IMG/VR virus record: IMGVR_UViG_3300001870_000001
Coordinates: 1 to 21,371 of that record
Direction: 5' to 3' (one strand)
Length of the DNA: 21,371 nt
Source of the DNA: a virus
The notes under the pieces were generated by a model. That model made no database searches, had not been told where the DNA came from, and saw only the letters and a program-made list of their open reading frames with translations. The first letter of the stretch is position 1. Each line of letters begins with the position of its first letter. The position numbers and the translations under genes are program-made. Of the stretch, positions 1 to 21,371 are shown piece after piece.

Positions 1-101
1 CTACTTGATGAGGATAATATTTTAATGCATTTTTTGGATAAATTAAAATCCAGAGCTGTTTCCCTTCAGGAATATCTTTTGCAGTTCCACTTACAGTATC
101 C
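1..101. repeat. Terminal direct repeat marking a circular molecule
   Basis: Bases 1-101 are identical to bases 21271-21371. The repeat lies inside a protein-coding gene that is intact only when the two ends are joined (218 bp at the right end plus 283 bp at the left, 167 codons in one frame). I infer an assembly overlap of a circular genome of about 21,270 bp rather than a viral terminal repeat. Confidence 0.95.
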
Positions 102-4489: not shown

Positions 4490-5065
4490 ATGGAAAATGG
4501 GCTAGTTACAGCAGATGGAACCAAGGTCCTAACTGTAGAGGAATATGAGAGGTTTATAAATGCTATTCCTGAGGCAATGAAAGCTATTTTTGAGATTAAC
4601 ACAATTACAGGCCTTAGATACATCGAGCTTCAAAGGCTCTATGAAAATCCTCAATGGTACTACAAAGAAAGAAACCAGATCATACTGCCTAAAGAAGCAC
4701 AGAAAAAGGAAAAGCAAAAGCTTCCTAAAAGGACTATTGATAAATTGCCTACTACTTTTTCCTATGTGTTTTCTCATTTCCTCAATGGAAAGAAACCGCC
4801 TTATAGATCTTCATGGAACAAAGATTTAGCTAGGTGGTCAGAGAAAGTAGGCATAAACCCAAAAGTTGGACCAAAAACTCCAAGAAAAACCATCGAGAGC
4901 TGGATGCTAAAGACTGGAATCCCATAGATAGAAATATATTCCAGACAAGGTCACGACCCTATAACATCTCTAAAGCATTACCAGAGCCTTTCTTTTACAG
5001 ATTACGAAATGAGGGACATAGAAAAAAGGCTTATAGAATGGGGAATTCTTGGAAGGGGGATTTGA
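4490..5065 (+). CDS. Short tyrosine recombinase (integrase) with in-frame TAG
   Basis: The frame encodes 191 residues if the TAG at 4925-4927 (position 146) is read through. Visible catalytic residues are Arg43 (TGLRYIEL), a Lys-rich beta region near 69-81, Arg132 (TPRKTIESW), His155 (RQGHDP) and the nucleophile Tyr164 (LKHYQ). The C-terminal helix runs to residue 191. The large N-terminal core-binding domain of most integrases is missing, as in some short archaeal plasmid recombinases. TAG falls exactly between Arg132 and His155, so without readthrough the protein is dead. With pyrrolysine or suppression it is complete, and the downstream frame shows no other damage. A cluster of inverted repeats precedes the start. 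It probably mediates site-specific integration or dimer resolution. A nonsense-mutated pseudogene is the alternative. Confidence 0.7.
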
Positions 5066-5240: not shown

Positions 5241-5322
5241 TTCCAAAGACTATGAAACGCTTTTTTTAAAATCGATATCAATGAAAAACTAATTTCAAAA
5301 ACGCATATTTTACCTATCGATG
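5241..5322 (+). repeat. 92-bp element family, diverged copy R3
   Basis: TTCCAAAGACTATGA at the left and ATTTTACC-TA-TCGATGAGTG at the right match both ends of R1 (TTCCATAGACTATGA and ATTTTACCCTTCGATAAGTG). The middle is about nine bases shorter and not clearly alignable. It is in the same orientation as R1 and R2. A minus-strand ORF of 88 codons (5159-5425) crosses it and is not supported as a gene. Confidence 0.45.
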
Positions 5323-5393
5323 AGTGGACACCCCAACAGCAAAAAAGCATAAGAAACACATAGGTCACATTAAAAAAAGAAATATAAACAGAG

Positions 5394-5558
5394 TTTTTGG
5401 CATAGTTCATAACGGTTATGCCCATCTATAATTGTATTATTCCAAATTATGATGGGATAAGACGTGTCGTATCCGTCTTTTAAGATATTCTGTTCGAGTA
5501 ATTCGTGTTCATCTTGTCCCTGTGGCGGGACTAAATTTTTGAAAGTTTCACGGTTCAT
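5394..5558 (-). pseudogene. ParB-like N-terminal domain fragment
   Basis: The frame gives MNRETFKNLVPPQGQDEHEL, then an acidic helix, then PIIIWNNTIIDGHNRYELCQ. The order FKNLVPP, LEQNILKDG, PIIIWNN, IDGHNRYE is the signature of the ParB/Srx-fold nuclease-like domain used in DNA partitioning and in phage regulators. Similarity ends abruptly after CQK at 5394, and the frame runs into unrelated AT-rich codons (LCLYFFF), so the DNA-binding and C-terminal parts are gone. The fragment lies between element R3 and an IS-end-like hairpin, so insertion or deletion at mobile-element ends may have destroyed it. Confidence 0.65.
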
Positions 5559-5569
5559 AAGGAAGGAAG

Positions 5570-5590
5570 CTCCCACGCTTTAGCTTGGAG
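5570..5590 (+). mobile_element. IS200/IS605-like end hairpin, copy A
   Basis: CTCCCACGC-TTTA-GCTTGGAG folds into a stem with one mismatch and one bulge, preceded by GGAAG and followed by AGGAATTCCGTC. This matches the overall layout of right-end hairpins of IS200/IS605 elements. No transposase or TnpB gene lies beside it. A second perfect hairpin, GGAGAGTT-AAT-AACTCTCC, lies 30 bp further on at 5621-5639. The stretch 5640-5820 shows no gene. Confidence 0.4.
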
Positions 5591-5821
5591 AGGAATTCCG
5601 TCATCTTTTTTAAATTTGGTGGAGAGTTAATAACTCTCCCTCCCATTTCTGGGGTAACGAACTTTCGTTTCTCTTCTCGTCAATGTTGGAAATGCTTGTT
5701 GGACATAACACACCATCCACATCTCAATAGGATTTTTAATGTTATGCGATAGAGCTACAAACTGAAGAAGCATTCGTAGGTATCATGACAAATCCAACGT
5801 AGTCATTTAAGACTTAGACTG

Positions 5822-5871
5822 GTCAACTAGAGCCCTATTACAAGCTCATTGCTTTAGCATGAGAAGTTGAC
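5822..5871 (+). mobile_element. IS200/IS605-like end, copy B, abutting the viral block
   Basis: GTCAAC (5822-5827) can pair with GTTGAC (5866-5871), enclosing a second stem CTCAT-T-GC-TTTA-GC-ATGAG (5845-5863). The element ends one base before the stop codon complement of the next gene. It resembles the end structure of IS200/IS605 or IS1341 elements, but no ORF accompanies it. Confidence 0.4.
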
Positions 5872-6084
5872 TCAATTCGTGAACCAGTAGATTATATAAT
5901 CACGAAATTGGTATACGGATCGAAGCGGTTGGTCTGACGTTGAAGCGATAAACCCCAACAACTGGCCGCAAATCATAATCACTACTGTAACCCCGAAAAC
6001 CAATTCCAAATATTTTATGCTTTCAAGTTGTTTTTCTAAGACCTCGATTCTTTTCTGTAGATCGTCTTCTGATATTTCACTCAT
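5872..6084 (-). CDS. Small coiled-coil membrane protein, holin-like layout
   Basis: 70 residues. Residues 1-25 (MSEISEDDLQKRIEVLEKQL) are a charged coiled coil. Residues about 27-48 form one transmembrane segment (LELVFGVTVVIMICGQLLGF). A short tail with RDYIIYWF follows. The start has GAGGGG seven bases upstream. It is the last gene of the terminase operon, 107 bp after TerL. Phage packaging/lysis cassettes often end with such proteins, but one-helix proteins of this kind have many roles, so holin is only a guess. An IS-end-like structure abuts the stop codon, suggesting that the operon was cut here and that further late genes may have been lost. Confidence 0.65.
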   Translation of the reverse strand: MSEISEDDLQKRIEVLEKQLESIKYLELVFGVTVVIMICGQLLGFIASTSDQPLRSVYQFRDYIIYWFTN

Positions 6085-6191
6085 TTGTGTCCCCTCGCGG
6101 TTTTACGCTACTTCCATTTAATTTTATAATTATCTTTCTTTTTAATTCCTGGTCGAACCGGGTGTTCTCTTCCAGTTTCATCAGTCTTTTC

Positions 6192-7514
6192 TTAACCTCT
6201 GAATCTCGTTGTTGCTACGCTTGAAAGACTGAATTTCTCAAAAGGCGTCTTCCCCTCTAATTCAGTTATACTCCACACAAGCGCGTCTAACCTATCGGGG
6301 CTTTTCCCTGCTCCCGGTACCCACTCACAAAGCTGATCTTCTAATTCGGGAAAGGTCCCAAAATGATGAATTCTCCCTTGCTCATAGAGTGCGCTTACCG
6401 GCTCCGCCCTTGTGGCCTTTCCCCGGCTAGCATGGACTGCTTTGAAGGGTATACTTGGATCAATTGTCTTTAAGGTATGTTCGACCATTTCCCCGCCGTT
6501 GTTGGTCTCGCCTACGATTTTGTTGGCCTGGTGTTTGTGATAAGCAGTAACAGCCGCCTCACCCCATTTCTGAGGCGATCCGTGAATGGTATAATCACCC
6601 AGGATATAATAATGCCCGTCTTTACTTTTCCCTGCAGCAATTATGCCCGTATCATCTGACCCGTCTTTTGAAGTGGCTGCAGGATCAACCCCAACGACTA
6701 CATAGGTGAGTTCCGGGATCTGTCTAACCTTGTTATTGTCAATGTCCGAGCGTTTCCACAGGGATTCCGGGTTATCGTCCAGGATATCCCCGTTAATCTC
6801 CTGCCTACCTAACCGCGTGCCTTCGTATTTGGATTTCATCCGCTCGACAAACAGCGGGTTAAGGTTTGCAGAATTATCTAGCGTGCTGCCTCGGGTTTGT
6901 ACGGTTCTGGAGTCTGCAATTAAGTCTCGAATTGTCTTAATTGGCCTCGGTGTAGTCGTGCAGATAACCTGCGGATTATCGCCTATCCTCAACCCCATTT
7001 CCAGATTATCCCATGTTTCCTGCGGATAGCGGAACTTAGCCAACTCATCAACCCAAGCCTTTTGGTGCTGTGGACCTCTCAGTTGGTCTGATTCATCACC
7101 GGAATAGATCAGGCAGATCGAACCATTAGGAAAAGTTAAACGTCTCTTAGAAGGCTCGTACACAGGCCTGAACCAGGGAGGCGCTGCCCGCATTATAGAG
7201 CTATCCCCTATCTCTACCATAGTATCGCGCACATCGGCTTTAGTCCGGCCCACAAGAGCAATGGGAGTGTATCCATGTGCAGCCCATTCTATAACCGTTT
7301 CGGAGCCCGTCCTTGTCTTCCCGTACCCTCTACCCGATCGAAGGAGCCAGGTAAACCAACCGCCGGGGGGCATCCGTTGTGCAGGTCTGGCTAACAACTG
7401 CCAATCGTGCTGAAGATAATAGAGCTCTTCATCTGAAAAATTATTGAGAATAGTCTCTCTCTGCGCTGCTGTTAGACACGCAAAGGATTGCAGCATTGAA
7501 GCGTTCTCTGGCAT
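6192..7514 (-). CDS. Terminase large subunit (DNA packaging ATPase-nuclease)
   Basis: 440 residues, the usual length for the TerL group that includes gene-transfer-agent-like packaging proteins. ATPase: Walker A SGRGYGKT (60-67), Walker B AWVDE (153-157), coupling motif TTT (186-188). Nuclease: VVVGVDP with Asp277, an acidic site near GETNNGGEMVE (335-345), and DRLDALVW (407-414) supplying the last acidic residues. It should pump DNA into a prohead and cut it. The ATG lies within the 3' end of TerS (74-bp overlap), with GGAG about nine bases upstream, so the two are translationally coupled. All catalytic residues appear intact. No portal or capsid gene follows, which is unusual because portal normally comes next. 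Confidence 0.93.
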   Translation of the reverse strand: MPENASMLQSFACLTAAQRETILNNFSDEELYYLQHDWQLLARPAQRMPPGGWFTWLLRSGRGYGKTRTGSETVIEWAAHGYTPIALVGRTKADVRDTMVEIGDSSIMRAAPPWFRPVYEPSKRRLTFPNGSICLIYSGDESDQLRGPQHQKAWVDELAKFRYPQETWDNLEMGLRIGDNPQVICTTTPRPIKTIRDLIADSRTVQTRGSTLDNSANLNPLFVERMKSKYEGTRLGRQEINGDILDDNPESLWKRSDIDNNKVRQIPELTYVVVGVDPAATSKDGSDDTGIIAAGKSKDGHYYILGDYTIHGSPQKWGEAAVTAYHKHQANKIVGETNNGGEMVEHTLKTIDPSIPFKAVHASRGKATRAEPVSALYEQGRIHHFGTFPELEDQLCEWVPGAGKSPDRLDALVWSITELEGKTPFEKFSLSSVATTRFRG

Positions 7515-7947
7515 GGGCTGTTTGCTCCTGAATGTTTAGAATGTTAATATTGTTCGTGTTCGTTGGGGCCTTCAGTCTGCCCAATCTCTCGTCCAGGCTG
7601 TCTTGAGCGTCAGTTGCTCCCCTAAGCGCCATAACTGCGGCCCTAAAATCCCCCCGGGATATAGCCTGATCGGATATCTCCAAAAACTGATCAATTATTT
7701 CAACTCTTTTCGTGATGGTATTGATTTCGGCATCGGCTACCTTGGCCCGTAATTTATCGCTTTTTTCGATAGCCTGAACCAGGGCGTTTTCGTTTGAATC
7801 GAAATACCGGAAAACCGAAGACAAACTTATAGGAGTTTTCGATTCTTTCGTTAAGATTTGCGAAATCTCTTCAAGGGTCTTTCCGGCACCTTTAAGGGTT
7901 TTCGCTTGTGTTTCCAGATCGTTTTTTATAATGTGATTAATTCGCAT
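7441..7947 (-). CDS. Putative terminase small subunit (TerS)
   Basis: 168 residues from the ATG at 7947. The longer frame to 7968 would need TTG, and I prefer the ATG. Residues about 8-50 (AKTLKGAGKTLEEISQILTK followed by ISLSSVFRYFDSNE) fit a helix-turn-helix DNA-binding domain. Residues 60-125 are helical and charged (AEINTITKRVEIIDQFLEIS), as in the oligomerisation region of TerS. The C-terminal tail would contact TerL. Identification rests mainly on position: it ends inside the TerL start, the standard TerS-TerL arrangement. It would recognise a pac or cos site. A TATA-like box and a small dyad lie upstream at 7984-8006, so the packaging genes may have their own promoter. Confidence 0.7.
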   Translation of the reverse strand: MRINHIIKNDLETQAKTLKGAGKTLEEISQILTKESKTPISLSSVFRYFDSNENALVQAIEKSDKLRAKVADAEINTITKRVEIIDQFLEISDQAISRGDFRAAVMALRGATDAQDSLDERLGRLKAPTNTNNINILNIQEQTAHARERFNAAILCVSNSSAERDYSQ

Positions 7948-7983
7948 TTGTACCCACTCTTTTCGCAAATAGCGCGGTTTAAA

Positions 7984-8006
7984 GCAAAATTTGCTATATA
8001 TTTTCG
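7984..8006 (-). promoter_or_regulatory. Promoter for the packaging genes
   Basis: On the minus strand CGAAAATATATAG is a good archaeal TATA box. It is followed directly by GCAAA-T-TTTGC, a dyad that could be an operator. It sits in the 101-bp gap between the HD gene and TerS. Confidence 0.45.
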
Positions 8007-8048: not shown

Positions 8049-8615
8049 TTAAAATGCCCCTTTTCTTTTTGAGTCTGCCATGTCCAGGGCTGCAAATATT
8101 TGAACTTGTGGAGTCCGCAAGATTGCCCGATGCATTGACAAGGTATCATGTTCTCGATAAGTGAAAATCCCGAAAAGCCCCATATGAAATCTTATAATAT
8201 CGTCTTCTTCTGGGGTCAGTAGGATGTGTTCTCCTATCCTTGAGAGCGATAAGGTGGCATGACCTTTTATGCCCTTCACGGACTTGTAACCATTACCTGC
8301 CGGGAGATACGCATTGATCTTACACAAGTCATGCAAAAGCCCGCAGATGACCACAGAATCAGGGGGAAGGGGTTTCATAAGTTGCTTGTTCGCAGCACTG
8401 AAAGCATGGACCAGAGAGAGAGAATGGTGGCAGAGACCGCCACGAAACGAGTTGTGAAAGCATGAACTTGCAGGTGCGGTGAAGTAGTCCGATTCAAGCA
8501 GGTAATCTAGCAGACCCACAATGCCAGGTCTGTTCACTGACTGCAACCGGAATATCACGGTTTCCTGATTGTGATTGGGGTCAACCTGCTGAGTTACGGG
8601 GGGGTAAGTTTGCAT
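8049..8615 (-). CDS. HD-domain phosphohydrolase
   Basis: 188 residues. The HD metal-binding pattern is complete: His63/His64 (GGLCHHSLSLVHAF), the His95-Asp96 pair (GLLHDLCKI), His119 (KGHATLSLS), His144 (IIRFHMG) and Asp178 (ALDMADS). HD enzymes hydrolyse phosphate esters of nucleotides, cyclic nucleotides or oligonucleotides. In viruses they have been linked to nucleotide-pool changes or to removal of host signalling nucleotides, but the substrate cannot be told from the sequence. The ATG follows the helicase stop codon without a gap, so it is translated as part of the replication operon. No membrane segment or extra domain is seen. The C-terminus ends soon after the final Asp. Confidence 0.85.
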   Translation of the reverse strand: MQTYPPVTQQVDPNHNQETVIFRLQSVNRPGIVGLLDYLLESDYFTAPASSCFHNSFRGGLCHHSLSLVHAFSAANKQLMKPLPPDSVVICGLLHDLCKINAYLPAGNGYKSVKGIKGHATLSLSRIGEHILLTPEEDDIIRFHMGLFGIFTYREHDTLSMHRAILRTPQVQIFAALDMADSKRKGAF

Positions 8616-10004
8616 TTACATCCACCCTCTTTCATTTAATCGCTCGGCGTTAGAGAGAACGGCCTGTAATCCTAGACTCTTCACAAATCCCGGATACTTT
8701 TTATTGAAGTCTCCAACGAACACCGGGACGTTATCAACGACTGAATTATACCCGGATCTTGCGTAATTTTTTAAGTCTCTTCTCAACAGGTCAGACATTG
8801 TTAATTTTTCTTCAATATTAGGTGTGAGAGGTCTCACATTAACTTCTGAATCCGTAATCGTAGGTGGCTGACACAATTTACTCAAATCATCGGAATTATC
8901 GCTCAACGACCTCTCACATTTATTTTCGGCATCGGTTGACACCGTTGTGAGAGGTGTGAGAGATGCCTTCGTCGTCGGCTGACACGATTTACTTGAATCC
9001 TCACAAATTTCCCCTGAGAGACCTATACCTATATTTTTAAAAAATGTTTTTTCAATATTACCATTATTTTTACAAAAGCTCCCCTCTCTCTCTCCTATAT
9101 CTGTGATTATTGTATTATTATTATTATTATTATATACTATACTGTTATCGTTTTTATCTCTCACATTGGGTGTGAGAGTTGTGTGAGAGTTGTGAGTGGC
9201 GGTAGCATTTTCGTAATCGGCTTCAATGAATTCACGTGTGAGCCTTTCAGCTTTATCCCGGTCTATGATATCTGCGGATTGAAACAACTTTGAGTTAATT
9301 TCAAACAAACCACCAGTGTACTTATACACAGTGCTTTTTGTGCTCGTTCTAACTGTTCCATCCACGGTGCCTAGTGATTCCATTTTCTCTAATTTTGAAA
9401 GCCCTTTGACTTTTCCTAGAAGCCCATCACTCCCGTTGCGCCCATTCATCGTATACCGGAGATTTGTTTCTTTAACCCCTGTTTTTTCTTGGATTTCAGT
9501 AAATGTTATTATCCTGCCGGGGCTATGCTGGATCACTTTCATGATTCCAATTTCCTTCCCATTGAGATTACATGCATTATTTGCAGCGGTGCCACTGTAA
9601 ACCTCAAGCGCTCTATCGTAATCGGCAAGTGTCGAAACTATGCCTCCGTGTACTTTCTCCCGATTCCGGAAGTTGTAAAGCGTAATACTAAACAGCATAT
9701 CTTGAAATTTATCAAAATTTCGGCGGTGCGAGTCGTCGTTCCATACGATAGCGTCAACCAACGGAGCATATACAGCGCATTCATTCTGAAAAATCGTATC
9801 AAATATACAACGACATGTTAACGTATCGTCATCTGGGTCAACCGAATATATACGGGTTGCTCGGCTTTTCTGGTAGTTGTTTACCTTCTCGTCTTGGTCA
9901 GTGCTTTCATCAGTGTCACCTATACAGAACCGTGTCTGTAGTTGCTCGTCTGGTATACTATCAACTGATGACATCCAAAGCGTAACCCCGGGGGGATGCT
10001 GCAT
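8616..10004 (-). CDS. AAA+ replicative helicase, 3' part (-1 frame)
   Basis: The frame holds what the 5' part lacks: the sensor strand and arginine region (VTLWMSSVDSIPDEQLQTRF), the AAA+ lid, a winged helix (near HSPGRIITFTEIQEKTGVKE) and a C-terminal domain ending NERGWM. Its own first ATG (10004) has no ribosome binding site and would begin in mid-domain, so it is best read as the continuation of 9920-10933. Joining at the CCCCCCGGGG run (9986-9995) gives about 772 residues. The linker (about residues 250-400 of this frame) is low in complexity: six Asn from an (ATT)n run, and repeated CQPPT/CQPTT and LTP peptides caused by repeated GTGAGAG and GGCTGACAC DNA. The stop is one base from the HD start. 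Confidence 0.75.
   Translation of the reverse strand: MQHPPGVTLWMSSVDSIPDEQLQTRFCIGDTDESTDQDEKVNNYQKSRATRIYSVDPDDDTLTCRCIFDTIFQNECAVYAPLVDAIVWNDDSHRRNFDKFQDMLFSITLYNFRNREKVHGGIVSTLADYDRALEVYSGTAANNACNLNGKEIGIMKVIQHSPGRIITFTEIQEKTGVKETNLRYTMNGRNGSDGLLGKVKGLSKLEKMESLGTVDGTVRTSTKSTVYKYTGGLFEINSKLFQSADIIDRDKAERLTREFIEADYENATATHNSHTTLTPNVRDKNDNSIVYNNNNNNTIITDIGEREGSFCKNNGNIEKTFFKNIGIGLSGEICEDSSKSCQPTTKASLTPLTTVSTDAENKCERSLSDNSDDLSKLCQPPTITDSEVNVRPLTPNIEEKLTMSDLLRRDLKNYARSGYNSVVDNVPVFVGDFNKKYPGFVKSLGLQAVLSNAERLNERGWM
8866..9200. repeat. Repeats inside the helicase linker coding region
   Basis: GGCTGACACAATTTACTCAA (8876) and GGCTGACACGATTTACTTGA (8976) are copies about 100 bp apart. TGTGAGAG or its complement occurs many times between 8820 and 9200. 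A run of about seven ATT lies at 9113-9135. They encode the low-complexity linker but could also be DNA sites, for example for replication. Confidence 0.5.
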
Positions 10005-10933
10005 ACGTTGACTACCAGGTCGCTGTTTAATGTTCGATGTATGGCTTCTTTTTGATAGTGGGATGTTATTGCTCGAAGTGTTACAACTATATCCCCCTCT
10101 ACTTTAGCATCATCCGAGTATACTATGGTCCCTTTTTTTAATGATTTATCGTAAAACAACACTTTTGAAGACAGCGACCCGGTAATGTATTTATATTCAG
10201 GAAGCAAATCTAACATGTCATCCATTGCGTCGCTTTTTCCCGTACCGGTTGCCCCGCTCGGTTTCATATGCAGACCAAGCCATGTGTTTGGTATCATCGT
10301 TCCGGCAATTGAACATAGGAGATTCTCCCCGATGTTCTTATCTCCAATATGTCGCGTGTTCCACGTTTTGCGGATATATAAGAACGGATCGCCGTTGTCT
10401 AGTATTTCATTGGCTTTGTCCCTAGCCCATTGTGGATATTCTTCATTACTTTCTTCTGTGGTCCCTTGATCGTCTTTTTGTTTTGCGTTAGATGTGCTGT
10501 TTTTATTTGTAGCCTCGCTCTTCAATCGTTTGTAAAATTTGGTTATAACACTTACCCATTTCGTTTTTAAATCGAATTTTTCACAAGTGTTAATAATTAT
10601 CTCTAACGCTTCGTCTTCATTTAATTTCAGCAAAGTGCTACATTTTACGAAATTCTTAACCTGTTCAACTCTCTTATCCTTGTCATCGTCACGAACTAAG
10701 TTTTTCATTTCTTCATTACATTGGTTATAAAGACGGTCGGGCTGAGTTTCCCTAATATGAGTTGATATTTTATTCACCAGGCCACTGAGGTCTTCCACAC
10801 CCCACGGTGAATCAAGTTTTAAATTCTCAGCCTCTACAAACCTGATCATCTCGTCAATGTCTGACATCGTCTTTGCATATTCGGAAAGTTCGACTATGTC
10901 TTTAAATTGTTCAGGAGGGTTACTTTCTGCCAA
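9920..10933 (-). CDS. AAA+ replicative helicase, 5' part (Walker A and B)
   Basis: 337 codons, of which about 315 belong to the helicase before the frame change. Residues 1-165 are a helical N-terminal region. Walker A is GATGTGKS (227-234) and Walker B is TIVYSDDA (269-276). These fit a viral/plasmid AAA+ helicase of the SF3/MCM-like type, paired here with a PrimPol. The start is TTG (10931-10933): a stop lies two codons upstream and a strong GGAGGGG sits six bases before it. The start overlaps the PrimPol end by 14 bp. The frame ends with 22 unrelated residues and a TAG if no shift occurs. Conserved helicase sequence continues in the -1 frame immediately after SIPP, so either programmed frameshifting or a one-base assembly error is required. 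Confidence 0.85.
   Translation of the reverse strand: MAESNPPEQFKDIVELSEYAKTMSDIDEMIRFVEAENLKLDSPWGVEDLSGLVNKISTHIRETQPDRLYNQCNEEMKNLVRDDDKDKRVEQVKNFVKCSTLLKLNEDEALEIIINTCEKFDLKTKWVSVITKFYKRLKSEATNKNSTSNAKQKDDQGTTEESNEEYPQWARDKANEILDNGDPFLYIRKTWNTRHIGDKNIGENLLCSIAGTMIPNTWLGLHMKPSGATGTGKSDAMDDMLDLLPEYKYITGSLSSKVLFYDKSLKKGTIVYSDDAKVEGDIVVTLRAITSHYQKEAIHRTLNSDLVVNVCSIPPGLRFGCHQLIVYQTSNYRHGSV
9986..9997 (-). promoter_or_regulatory. Candidate -1 ribosomal frameshift site
   Basis: The minus strand reads ATC-CCC-CCG-GGG in the incoming frame. C-CCC-CCG fits the X-XXY-YYZ slippery pattern, and slipping back one base gives CCC-CCC-GGG-GTT, which continues into the conserved helicase sequence. The G run next to the C run is itself self-complementary (CCCCGGGG). 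I could not identify a clear downstream pseudoknot by eye. Confidence 0.5.
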
Positions 10934-12068
10934 AGTTTAACCCCTCCATTTTGCCAATTACCAGAGTAATAGTATAAGCGATATCACTCAGCCTATATCC
11001 GTCTGTTAAATCTTCTTTCTTACATACTCCCTTTTGAATAGCATAATATGAAAGTGCAGACGATGGGATAGGATCATTTTCGGGTATAAGCCCGCTATTC
11101 TTCGCGTATTTCCATACCTCAAATACGGTATAACCATCCTGAAAGTCGACCCCAAAATATCGCCCACCATGAGCTCGTCCTGAGCGCTCGCACGACAAAA
11201 CCCCCGCTAATATAGCCAGGTAAGAAAAAGCGTTATGGTATACTTCATGCCTCCAGCAGTGCAGTAAACCATTACTTACATTGCAATTGTGCCCAGTCCC
11301 TGACCCATGTATAATAGTAGGTATTGGAACCTTCCGATTGCCTGTTTCTCGGACCCCAGACACGTCCGTGATATCCAGATCCCATAACGCACTTCTATAT
11401 TTACCGCCTTTGTTCGCGTCGTTCGACTTTTTACCCACGTTTCTGATGACTGCCTGAATTTCATCATGTCTCATTTCAGCGTATCGTGCCCTGTAAACCT
11501 CTGGCAACTCATCGAATGTTATTTCAGAAACGGCGAGTTTGTTGTTAACGGTATATTTGCCTGCGAAAGGTCTTTCTTCTTCGGGCATCCGGCTAATTTG
11601 TTCTTCTGAGCAGGGTACATAAGATCCCGGAGCAACCACATAATACCAAACCGCTCGGACTTCTCCCGCGTTCTTTGTGGGTATGTTCTTTTTAGCAGTT
11701 CCATCTATAGCAAAATAATAATCGTGCCGCCCTATTCGCTTTCTTGATGTTATTTGAAGTGTTGGCTTTATCTCGGGTGCCTGGGTGAGATCGTCCCTGT
11801 CTACGATGCAAAGCGGATCTTTCCCAGTAGCACATATCCCGATATTGTGGCCTTTTTTCATCAAGTATACAGCTTGTTGAATGGTTTTCCGGTTGTTTTT
11901 CCAGCTTATATTTTCGATCGGTTCTTTATCGTTCTTTACCAGTGGGAAATAAAAGGGAGAGTATCCGCTAGGCGTGGATCGCATCAACAACGTATGAAAC
12001 TTTAATAATTCGGAGGGGTCAGTGACCGACGATTCGAATTTATTCACAAAATATGTTGGTTTTTCCAT
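10920..12068 (-). CDS. Primase-polymerase (archaeo-eukaryotic PrimPol)
   Basis: 382 residues. PrimPol motifs appear in order: motif I LCIVDRDD (86-93, Asp90/Asp92), motif II GRHDYYF (113-119, His115) and motif III GEVRAVWYYVVAPGSYV (135-151). A cluster HNCN...LLHCWRH (His260, Cys262, His270, Cys271, His274) followed by an alanine/leucine-rich helix and Cys293 resembles the zinc-binding segment found after PrimPol domains in archaeal mobile elements. The enzyme should make primers and possibly extend them on the element's DNA. It is first in the replication operon, with the AAA+ helicase overlapping its end. The ATG has AGGAAGA upstream. A palindrome-rich promoter lies 120-190 bp before it. 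Confidence 0.88.
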   Translation of the reverse strand: MEKPTYFVNKFESSVTDPSELLKFHTLLMRSTPSGYSPFYFPLVKNDKEPIENISWKNNRKTIQQAVYLMKKGHNIGICATGKDPLCIVDRDDLTQAPEIKPTLQITSRKRIGRHDYYFAIDGTAKKNIPTKNAGEVRAVWYYVVAPGSYVPCSEEQISRMPEEERPFAGKYTVNNKLAVSEITFDELPEVYRARYAEMRHDEIQAVIRNVGKKSNDANKGGKYRSALWDLDITDVSGVRETGNRKVPIPTIIHGSGTGHNCNVSNGLLHCWRHEVYHNAFSYLAILAGVLSCERSGRAHGGRYFGVDFQDGYTVFEVWKYAKNSGLIPENDPIPSSALSYYAIQKGVCKKEDLTDGYRLSDIAYTITLVIGKMEGLNFGRK

Positions 12069-15090: not shown

Positions 15091-15266
15091 AATCGTAACA
15101 CTTCGTTTGTGAACTGAATTGGTTTTACCCACGGTTCCGGTGGAAAGTGTGGGAAGTTGACATAGTTCGAGTTGTATTCAAATTCTCCGGTTTGGGGGTG
15201 CGTTGGGTTAACTCAGTGAACAAATCAATCGCGGGCGATGGGTACTATGCGTCAGAGTGAAACAGT

Positions 15267-15358
15267 GTTCCACAGACTATAGGCATAGAAATGACAAATG
15301 CCCAAAAACGCCATCAGAAGACACCAAATATAATGATCATATACTTTACCCTTCGATA
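15267..15358 (+). repeat. 92-bp element, copy R2
   Basis: GTTCCACAGACTAT at the left and TTTACCCTTCGATA at the right. It is the same length as R1 (1986-2077) with no gaps and 66/92 identical bases, and has the same orientation. It lies about 350 bp outside the first gene of the GC-richer block, while R3 lies outside the other end. Confidence 0.6.
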
Positions 15359-18058: not shown

Positions 18059-18664
18059 TCATTGATCCACCTCTTTTGGAATGAAAACCCAACACCTTGT
18101 TTGAATTCCGTCTAATCGGATTACGTCAGTGCCTGCCTTTTTTAATCCTAATTCCGTCATTGCAGTAGATAGGGTATTGAATGGTATCTGGAAATGATAT
18201 GTATCAACGATTTCTTTGACCTTCCAGGAAGGGAAGTAGTAATAGCCATTATGATCATACAACGCCTTTCCAGAAATGATGTCTTCAATTATAGTAGTTG
18301 GTTCAAATTGACGTATTTTAGCAAATATTTCCCTTGCTTTAAAAACAGCATCAGACTCCTCTGGTGCTTCAATTAATTTCATATTAAATACACTTGCTTG
18401 TAAAAATTTATCCCACTCAATGTTTGTAAATCTGACAGTCGGATAATACATTAACTTCTGATACTGTTTCCTAAATTCCTTGGGAGTATCAGCTTTCTCT
18501 GCACAAACCCTAATTAAGCTAGTATCCCCTGCTATCTCTATTTCAAATTCATAAAACGTAGGGTCGCTCGATATTCTCCCCTTTATAATTCTAAAATCTG
18601 TAAGTTGGTTAAATAAAGTATCAACATGTGTATTTTCAAAGTCTATGTTTCCTTTAAATTTCAT
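18059..18664 (-). CDS. Putative winged-helix DNA-binding protein
   Basis: 201 residues from the ATG at 18664, which has GGAGG six bases upstream. The longer frame from 18691 lacks a site, so I reject its first nine residues. Residues 1-110 are mixed alpha/beta. The C-terminal third (GYYYFPSWKVKEIVDTYHFQ, then IPFNTLSTAMTELGLKKAGT and RCWVFIP) resembles the winged-helix domain found at the C-terminus of some archaeal and viral replication proteins. It probably binds DNA and may be a replication accessory factor. It precedes the SF1 helicase by 126 bp, and a GGTAT/ATACC dyad lies about 105 bp upstream of its start. Confidence 0.7.
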   Translation of the reverse strand: MKFKGNIDFENTHVDTLFNQLTDFRIIKGRISSDPTFYEFEIEIAGDTSLIRVCAEKADTPKEFRKQYQKLMYYPTVRFTNIEWDKFLQASVFNMKLIEAPEESDAVFKAREIFAKIRQFEPTTIIEDIISGKALYDHNGYYYFPSWKVKEIVDTYHFQIPFNTLSTAMTELGLKKAGTDVIRLDGIQTRCWVFIPKEVDQ

Positions 18665-18768
18665 TTTTTCCTCCATAATTCTAAAGCGCATTCGCTAGGA
18701 GGAACTGCAATAGTAAAAAAGTATATATATTAACAATACGTTCTATATGTATACAGATTTTCTATATA

Positions 18769-20431: not shown

Positions 20432-21017
20432 CGAATCATCTCCATTGAACAGGAGACGATCATAGGGCAATCGAAAAGTTTATGACTGAATATACCATAG
20501 TTACAACTACACGAAATCATAATGTTTCCTCGTACTGGGGATCATTTTGGGGTTGCAGGTGTTAGGCTGTAACTCCATCAATCTTATCTTTCCTTAATCA
20601 AATGTTTTTGACATATTAAACTGTTTCTTCTGAATCCAGTGTATTTTCCGTTATTTTCCATACTATCTTTTTTTAATTTCATAAAATAAGAAAAAGAAGT
20701 ACCATTCGAGTACAAAACGACCGAAAATTCAGAGACATTGACTTACATAAAGTACAAAGAATAAAAATAATAGCGGTACAAAATAATCAAAAATTAAGAG
20801 ATATTGCAGTGCATAAAGTACAAAGAATAGTAATCATTTAATTATATAAAGTGCAAAAAATAACAATCATTCAAGTACAAAATTATCAAGAAAAATAAGT
20901 ACAAAACAAGGTATATTTTTACGAATATAAATATTGCTTTTTGTATTATTACTGACCTGTATATAGCATATAAATATCCCAATTATGACGTTTTTCACTG
21001 GTTTTGTAAAAGTGCCA
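20432..21017. other. Gene-poor AT-rich region holding the iteron array
   Basis: Apart from the iterons at 20699-20906 nothing supportable was found. A 32-codon frame (MKLKKDSMENNG...) on the minus strand near 20585-20685 lacks a ribosome binding site. TATA-like GAATATAAATATTG and GTATATAGCATATAAATATC lie at 20933-20977 and may drive transcription away from the array. Confidence 0.5.
20699..20906. repeat. Iteron array, candidate replication origin
   Basis: GTACAAA occurs at 20710, 20752, 20776, 20818, 20875 and 20899, with a variant GTGCAAA at 20851 and a degenerate GTACC at 20699. The spacing is 42, 24, 42, 33, 24, 24 bp. Bases 20710-20775 and 20776-20841 are a 66-bp tandem repeat (shared AAAATT, AGAGA, ATTG, CATAAAGTACAAAGAATA). 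The surroundings are extremely AT-rich. This is the layout of iteron-type plasmid origins or partition centromeres, with a putative DNA-binding gene adjacent. Confidence 0.7.
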
Positions 21018-21036
21018 GATTTTTTGCAACAGAACC
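21018..21036 (-). mobile_element. IS6-family-like terminal repeat, right copy
   Basis: On the minus strand GGTTCTGTTGCAAAAAATC differs from 4263-4281 by one base and faces it. It lies 17 bp past the stop codon of the wrapped membrane-protein gene. No transposase accompanies it. Confidence 0.5.
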
Positions 21037-21052
21037 GAAATCACTCCTTAAA

Positions 21053-21371
21053 TTATTCTCTAATTACAGTGATAGTAGTAATTTTATCAGTTCCCTCTGG
21101 AAGATTCTCCATTCCGGGCCAATTATTATCTGCTGCAGTATTAATATACGTCGCAAAATTGTTTGAAGCATTTTTATCAGCCAATACAGCTAATATGTCG
21201 TATTTATCACCAACATTATGTTCTTGACCGAACTGAGCAGTAAATTTCCAACTTCTATCATTTTTAATATCTACTTGATGAGGATAATATTTTAATGCAT
21301 TTTTTGGATAAATTAAAATCCAGAGCTGTTTCCCTTCAGGAATATCTTTTGCAGTTCCACTTACAGTATCC
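21053..21371 (-). CDS. Membrane-anchored extracellular-domain protein, C-terminal part (wraps to position 283)
   Basis: Within 21053-21270 the frame encodes the last 72 residues of the 166-residue protein that starts at 283. Bases 21271-21371 duplicate positions 1-101. The C-terminal half (RSWKFTAQFGQEHNVGDKYD, then ILAVLADKNASNNF and GTDKITTITVIRE) has the alternating strand pattern of a beta-sandwich, with a WKF...VGDKYDILAV segment typical of archaeal surface-protein modules. The stop is TAA. The gene is intact only in the circular form. The family was not identified. A host-surface or virion-associated role is possible. Confidence 0.8.
   Translation of the reverse strand, partial: DTVSGTAKDIPEGKQLWILIYPKNALKYYPHQVDIKNDRSWKFTAQFGQEHNVGDKYDILAVLADKNASNNFATYINTAADNNWPGMENLPEGTDKITTITVIRE

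Follow-up and report, generated by a model that had tools for sequence, protein, structure and literature searches.

Gene content of the circle

The window, by which we mean the whole stretch of DNA analyzed here, corresponds to a 21,371-base virus record in IMG/VR. Its ends are identical over 101 bp and a 166-aa ORF spans their joint, with the terminal repeat inside the ORF; the window is therefore a closed circle of 21,270 bp. Nearly all of the genes are carried on the minus strand. In order from the start of transcription, they encode a 232-aa unknown protein, a 210-aa protein, a UvrD-like SF1 helicase, a 122-aa DUF488-like protein, a 251-aa unknown protein, small regulators, PrimPol, a split AAA/Rep helicase, an HD-domain protein, and the small (TerS) and large (TerL) terminase subunits. 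The accessory region that comes after TerL holds a standalone HEARO RNA, a plus-strand integrase, an acyltransferase, and membrane proteins.

1..101, no strand: terminal repeat, exact 101-bp copy of 21271-21371, circle closure
4490..5057, plus: compact tyrosine integrase, 79% identical to a Methanosarcina chromosomal-island integrase
5667-5871, minus: complete HEARO (OMEGA-type) RNA, 134.9 bits, E 2.5e-28
6192..7514, minus: TerL, large terminase, 440 aa, ATPase and nuclease intact
7441..7968, minus: TerS, small terminase, 175 aa from TTG, overlapping the terL start
8049..8615, minus: HD-domain phosphohydrolase-like gene, also adjoining the terminase genes in L002 and L070 and present in L072
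8616..10933 (9920-10933 plus 8616-10004), minus: AAA/Rep-type helicase in two frames, one-base shift near 9989
10920..12068, minus: PrimPol, 382 aa, 93% identical in L068, 67% and 59% in islands L114 and L115
12788..12967, minus: small regulator-like ORF, homologue in L072
13941..14696, minus: 251-aa protein of unknown fold, sole relative found in L133
16475..17932, minus: UvrD-like SF1 helicase (Pfam/PHROG scans)
18059..18691, minus: 210-aa protein, relative in L133
19772..20470, minus: 232-aa protein of unknown fold, no known family

The element has its own replication module (PrimPol and helicases), with no origin identified. The AAA helicase is a single intact 762-aa ORF in the relative L068, and the one-base shift that splits it here falls in a C6G4 run; this may be a sequence error, and decay or frameshifting could not be distinguished. 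The integrase contains an in-frame TAG at 4925-4927, between the conserved R and Y boxes. Because TAG can encode pyrrolysine in Methanosarcina, this codon may be read through; TAG serves as the stop in one (450-956) of 17 window genes checked. No attachment site was found for the integrase. The split helicase and interrupted integrase could together reflect decay of the element.

An earlier note, made from the letters alone, had described a closed 21-kb circle carrying PrimPol, an AAA+ helicase, an SF1 helicase, and a recombinase. Closure is established by the repeat and the ORF across the joint, and PrimPol and the SF1 helicase were correctly read; the AAA helicase is split, and the recombinase is present but with an in-frame TAG. 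Among the unknown ORFs it listed, those of 251, 168, and 134 aa fit and that of 219 aa does not, the present list being 251, 232, 210, 168, and 134 aa.

The circle also carries several repeats and smaller features. A non-coding 93-bp repeat occurs at 1985-2077 and 15266-15358 (72% identical) and at 5305-5331, with the common core TTTACCCTTCGATA; it has no match at the other loci. Three 46-bp repeats (65-76% identical) lie in an AT-rich intergenic region at 20672-20882 and are possibly iterons of an origin. A 122-bp stretch at 20916-21037 was considered as a pac site and rejected: Aligned copies end in terminal inverted repeats GGTTC(C/T)GTTGCAAA, which identifies it as a small transposable element. 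This element, ~145 bp long with ends resembling the IS6 family, is kept in L002, L070, and L072, and the window copy is without its left end. A ParB-like fragment at 5370-5576 is akin to one in virus G113. The HEARO RNA directly follows the stop of a 70-aa ORF (5872-6084), and no IscB/IsrB gene was recognized anywhere in the window. HEARO is frequent in Methanosarcinaceae, occurring in 21 of 112 genomes with up to 19 scored copies per genome.

A complete and maintained terminase

Pfam domains Terminase_6N (1e-23) and Terminase_6C (1e-17) cover nearly the whole length of TerL, which also matches the PHROG terminase large subunit at 1.5e-47. All ATPase motifs are present (Walker A GRGYGKT at residue 61, Walker B VDE at 155, and the TTTP motif at 186), as are the acidic motifs of the nuclease (GVDPA at 275, ETNNGG at 336, and SPDRLDA at 405). 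The protein is 67% identical to TerL of virus L001, a headed virus that encodes a Mu-gpT-type major capsid protein (MCP) as well as a protein resembling portals (a below-cut-off match to Pfam Portal_Mu). TerS matches no family in the Pfam or PHROG libraries, but a profile combining the L001 TerS with that of a Methanosarcina provirus finds it at 4e-51. It is 77% identical to TerS of a second Methanosarcina element, L133, 48% identical over 147 aa to the L001 gene directly before terL, and 48% identical to its counterpart in a tailed provirus of Methanosarcina genome G082; the MCPs of this provirus and of L001 are 43% identical. Comparison with these homologues suggests that the true TerS start is the ATG at 7947.

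Pairwise dN/dS is 0.10 (window-L002) and 0.08 (window-L072) for the TerL nuclease half and 0.24 (window-L133) for TerS, with values of 0.14-0.22 among the type-B TerS genes of the sister elements described below. Judged by these comparisons, both terminase genes are under purifying selection (dN/dS ~0.1-0.24), and the low values for the nuclease half and TerS indicate that the motor is maintained. The full-length TerL with all motifs and the TerS of the earlier note are thus both real, the former by its Pfam and PHROG matches and every catalytic motif, the latter by its profile match and its overlap with the terL start. A dead TerL would have refuted the satellite reading of that note; with intact motifs and dN/dS of ~0.1, TerL is not dead.

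Absence of recognizable head and tail genes

The six frames of the circle were searched with profiles for seven portals, three MCPs, two proteases, head morphogenesis, and tape measure. No profile matched the window at E<=10; in the same run, each profile found its source proteins, and TerS and TerL of the circle were found. Pfam and PHROG scans of the larger window ORFs likewise revealed no head or tail gene (MCP, portal, or tail). Because portal and MCP families are diverse, profiles alone cannot exclude a very divergent head gene, and against a portal the stronger argument is ORF size. Terminases of this class act, to our knowledge, on a portal of ~300 aa or more. Every window ORF longer than 251 aa is assigned, the largest unassigned ORF being the 251-aa one, so the circle has no room for a portal. 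Of the 55 IMG/VR relatives of TerL whose sequence continues for 1.8 kb or more downstream, 50 have a portal-sized ORF no more than 1.3 kb away. Neither the 251-aa nor the 232-aa protein could be assigned to a known fold or family, and the 251-aa protein has no relative among viral contigs or in the PDB; their AlphaFold models (mean pLDDT 49 and 45, respectively) were too poor for structure search. Within these limits, six-frame profiles, Pfam/PHROG scans, and ORF sizes agree with the earlier statement that portal, major capsid, protease, and tape measure are missing.

Host and relatives

The PrimPol, integrase, and helicases of the window match mobile elements in Methanosarcina genomes, PrimPol alone having matches in 10 of 112 Methanosarcinaceae genomes. 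A contig of a Methanosarcina MAG, L072, carries the HD gene, PrimPol, helicase, TerS, and TerL; a second contig of the same MAG, L133, has homologues of the 251-aa and 210-aa proteins, UvrD, TerS, and TerL. From these matches and contigs, the 79% identical integrase, the transposable element shared with L072, and the spread of HEARO, we infer, without proof, that the host is Methanosarcina or close kin, in line with the archaeal origin supposed in the earlier note.

TerS and TerL, in turn, match those of methanogen tailed viruses that have heads. Apart from TerS, TerL, and the ParB-like fragment, no window genes were found in L001, the G082 provirus, or the examined parts of G113. The window backbone itself is of a type seen in integrative elements and archaeal plasmids. 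Scans with the HD gene and PrimPol for further closed family members returned only known fragments or nothing.

A mosaic motor in sister elements

Four sister elements (L002, L070, L068, and L072) are fragments, unlike the closed window. In L002 and L070, a TerS-TerL pair follows the same HD gene as in the window, and in L068 such a pair occurs with the same PrimPol and helicase. The TerS of all four is unrelated to that of the window (~22% identity), and the ATPase half of TerL differs as well (47-49%). In contrast, the nuclease half is 85-88% identical at the protein level in L002 and L072, and window and L002 share 85% DNA identity over this half (~6184-6758). Trees of the two halves differ accordingly: The ATPase-half tree joins the window to L001 (100/99), whereas the nuclease-half tree joins it to L002 and L072 (94/94). 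The sisters have kept the TerL nuclease half, but their TerS and TerL ATPase half have been replaced by versions from a different virus lineage. The virus relative of this type-B cassette is the 77-kb methanogen-type virus behind L046/G113 (TerS 45-47%; TerL 68% to L070; portal 24% to the L001 portal, E 3e-26). L046 itself, with no portal within 10 kb, was considered as a portal-less sister and rejected because its 77-kb contig has an L001-homologous portal; this contig also encodes a giant tape-measure-like protein.

Tailed phages use the ATPase half of TerL for contact with TerS and its C-terminal part for contact with the portal. Given these contacts, the exchange would alter DNA recognition and keep the docking side. 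We can offer only as a tentative possibility, and one we somewhat doubt, that these elements form a family of archaeal tailed-virus satellites with a whole motor and no particle, in which exchange of the cassette (TerS plus ATPase half) changes the helper or packaging signal and the element's own nuclease half and C-terminal tail are kept.

How far fragments can testify to a missing particle is limited by the arrangement of genes in headed viruses. Three chromosomal loci (L124, L129, and L132) that have a 54%-identical TerL but lack a portal next to it were rejected as satellites, since several such loci are full proviruses. A portal search identified full proviruses in G034, G065, G047, and G043, in which 2-11 kb of cargo separates TerL from the portal, and in virus G113 the portal lies ~11 kb beyond TerL. 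Portal absence in the sister fragments is therefore weak evidence, and the claim that there is no particle rests on the closed circle. Four further loci (G042:C7, G045, G051:C8, and G058:C80) remain undecided between provirus and satellite, so no portal-less chromosomal TerL locus was used as evidence. No relative of the L001 portal was found among the 112 Methanosarcinaceae genomes, which, like the unknown folds of the 251-aa and 232-aa proteins, counts against the satellite reading given below. As a separate observation, the cargo between terL and portal in the L124, L125, L127, L152, and L153 proviruses (2-11 kb) looks metabolic and includes flavodoxin, hybrid-cluster protein, transporters, and regulators.

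A probable satellite of tailed viruses

A complete, selectively kept motor without recognizable shell or tail genes most likely belongs to a satellite packed in the particles of another virus. The circle meets a broad criterion for helper-dependent satellites (intact packaging genes, no particle genes found) and does not meet that for autonomous tailed viruses, Caudoviricetes (MCP, portal, and tail genes). We consider it probable that the circle is a plasmid-like, integrative, helper-dependent satellite of Methanosarcina head-tailed viruses, its packaging by a helper being inferred. The satellite reading of the earlier note gains support in that the comparative evidence fits a plasmid-backbone element with borrowed packaging genes. 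Headed viruses with a related TerS and/or TerL do exist in methanogens (L001, G113, and the G082 provirus).

As we picture it, the element would replicate with its own PrimPol and helicases and would probably integrate via its own tyrosine recombinase. Empty heads would come from a compatible tailed virus, either an L001-like one or a provirus resident in the host; the element's TerS would mark element DNA, and its TerL would dock on the helper portal and pump the DNA in. The use of helper portals, heads, and tails is inferred, as are induction of the element by a helper and the notion that helper or packaging signal changed along with the observed exchange of the cassette. Direct evidence is lacking for packaging itself, for a pac/cos site, and for a helper that shared the sample.

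A virus-plasmid fusion or defective phage-plasmid-like tailed virus, stripped of its head and tail genes and maintained as a plasmid with the terminase as a remnant, would account for the interrupted integrase, the split helicase, and the ParB-like fragment akin to G113. We regard this as unlikely, because purifying selection acts on both terminase genes, neither of which is damaged; an intact TerS-TerL pair is likewise retained in sister elements, even as a swapped cassette; and the backbone is of the kind found in integrative elements and archaeal plasmids and differs from that of the headed viruses we examined.

Alternatively, TerS and TerL could serve host defense as an interference device that competes with or poisons the packaging of invading tailed viruses. 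Their resemblance to the terminases of methanogen viruses would suit such a role, and bacterial satellites do disturb helper packaging (PMC6092414, PMC11921389). However, both subunits are kept with full ATPase and nuclease, which is more than a decoy needs, and the islands that combine this PrimPol with TerS alone are laid out like the mobile phage-inducible chromosomal islands (PICIs). We give interference on its own little credence; it and the satellite reading are not mutually exclusive.

That the 251-aa and other orphan proteins form an unrecognized particle of the element's own, with a divergent capsid and no classical portal, is very improbable: The 251-aa and 232-aa proteins are indeed without known fold or family, but known terminases of this class act on a portal of the size given above, every ORF longer than 251 aa is assigned, and no head or tail profile matches the circle.

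Relation to known satellites

The satellite proposed here would practice a form of capsid piracy known from bacterial islands, the PICIs (PMC6092414). Like PICIs/SaPIs, which use their TerS to redirect packaging, it has a regulator, a primase-replication block, and a TerS; it also has an integrase, though one with an in-frame TAG and without a recognized attachment site. It differs in its inferred archaeal host and in being a closed circle, with unrelated proteins and with TerL besides TerS. The optional PICI trait of a TerS homologue is met, the window TerS being homologous to TerS of headed viruses (redirection is inferred). None of the exclusive PICI genes stl, alpA, ppi, and rpp was found in the window with Pfam, PHROGs, and NCBIfam, nor was a capsid-size or interference gene recognized there. 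The cf-PICIs likewise have their own TerS and TerL but bring genes for capsid, protease, portal, and connectors as well (PMC10690885), and the searches of the window found no such gene; with terminase only, it does not meet the cf-PICI criterion of capsid, protease, and portal plus terminase. The Marinitoga plasmid pMP1, which rides the tailed-virus particles of helper phage MPV1, is also free of structural genes, but is bacterial, 13.3 kb in size, and without TerS (PMC11921389), whereas the window has both subunits.

Among viruses, L001, G113 (77 kb), the G082 provirus, and Methanobacterium virus PhiF3 resemble the window or its sisters in TerS and/or TerL and differ in encoding heads and tails; L001, the G082 provirus, and the examined parts of G113 also lack its PrimPol, helicases, and integrase. 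The archaeal satellites pSSVx and pSSVi, which depend on Sulfolobus fuselloviruses, are like the window in being without complete particle genes, but their helpers are spindle-shaped viruses that are not known to have a terminase-portal motor. PMC11389934 mentions fusellovirus satellites and cites a review of fuselloviruses and their satellites.

A full-text literature search, with subscription journals mostly outside its reach, found no terminase-bearing archaeal satellite, the only archaeal ones being those of fuselloviruses, and no described satellite family with TerS and TerL but no head. SaPI-type PICIs have TerS only, and cf-PICIs have a head as well. Hijacking of tailed-virus particles is known in many bacteria, and we did not find an archaeal case described; the earlier note had called an archaeal capsid borrower with its own large terminase notable, packaging itself still being inferred. 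If our reading is true, capsid piracy of tailed viruses extends to archaea, with Methanosarcina as a test ground that is open to cultivation and genetic manipulation.

TerS-bearing islands in Methanosarcina

Two Methanosarcina genomes, G104 (island L114) and G105 (island L115), carry a window-type PrimPol beside a TerS. The two TerS proteins belong to PHROG_4102 (E 8e-5 and 8e-9) and share 49% identity; the ~40 kb examined around each island revealed neither a TerL nor a portal. By analogy, and with the island ends unmapped, their gene content is that of a TerS-bearing PICI, near the PICI/SaPI layout. The pyrF-adjacent integrase of both loci was considered as the islands' own and probably is not, because a recombinase at the same place is widespread in the genus. 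In the Methanosarcina genomes examined, different mobile islands (L176-L179, L114, and L115) directly follow this recombinase gene, and the site looks like a hotspot. In G105, BREX genes (BrxA 5e-106, BrxB 1e-76) occupy 18014-19901 of L115, starting ~4 kb past the island TerS, and could be cargo of the island.
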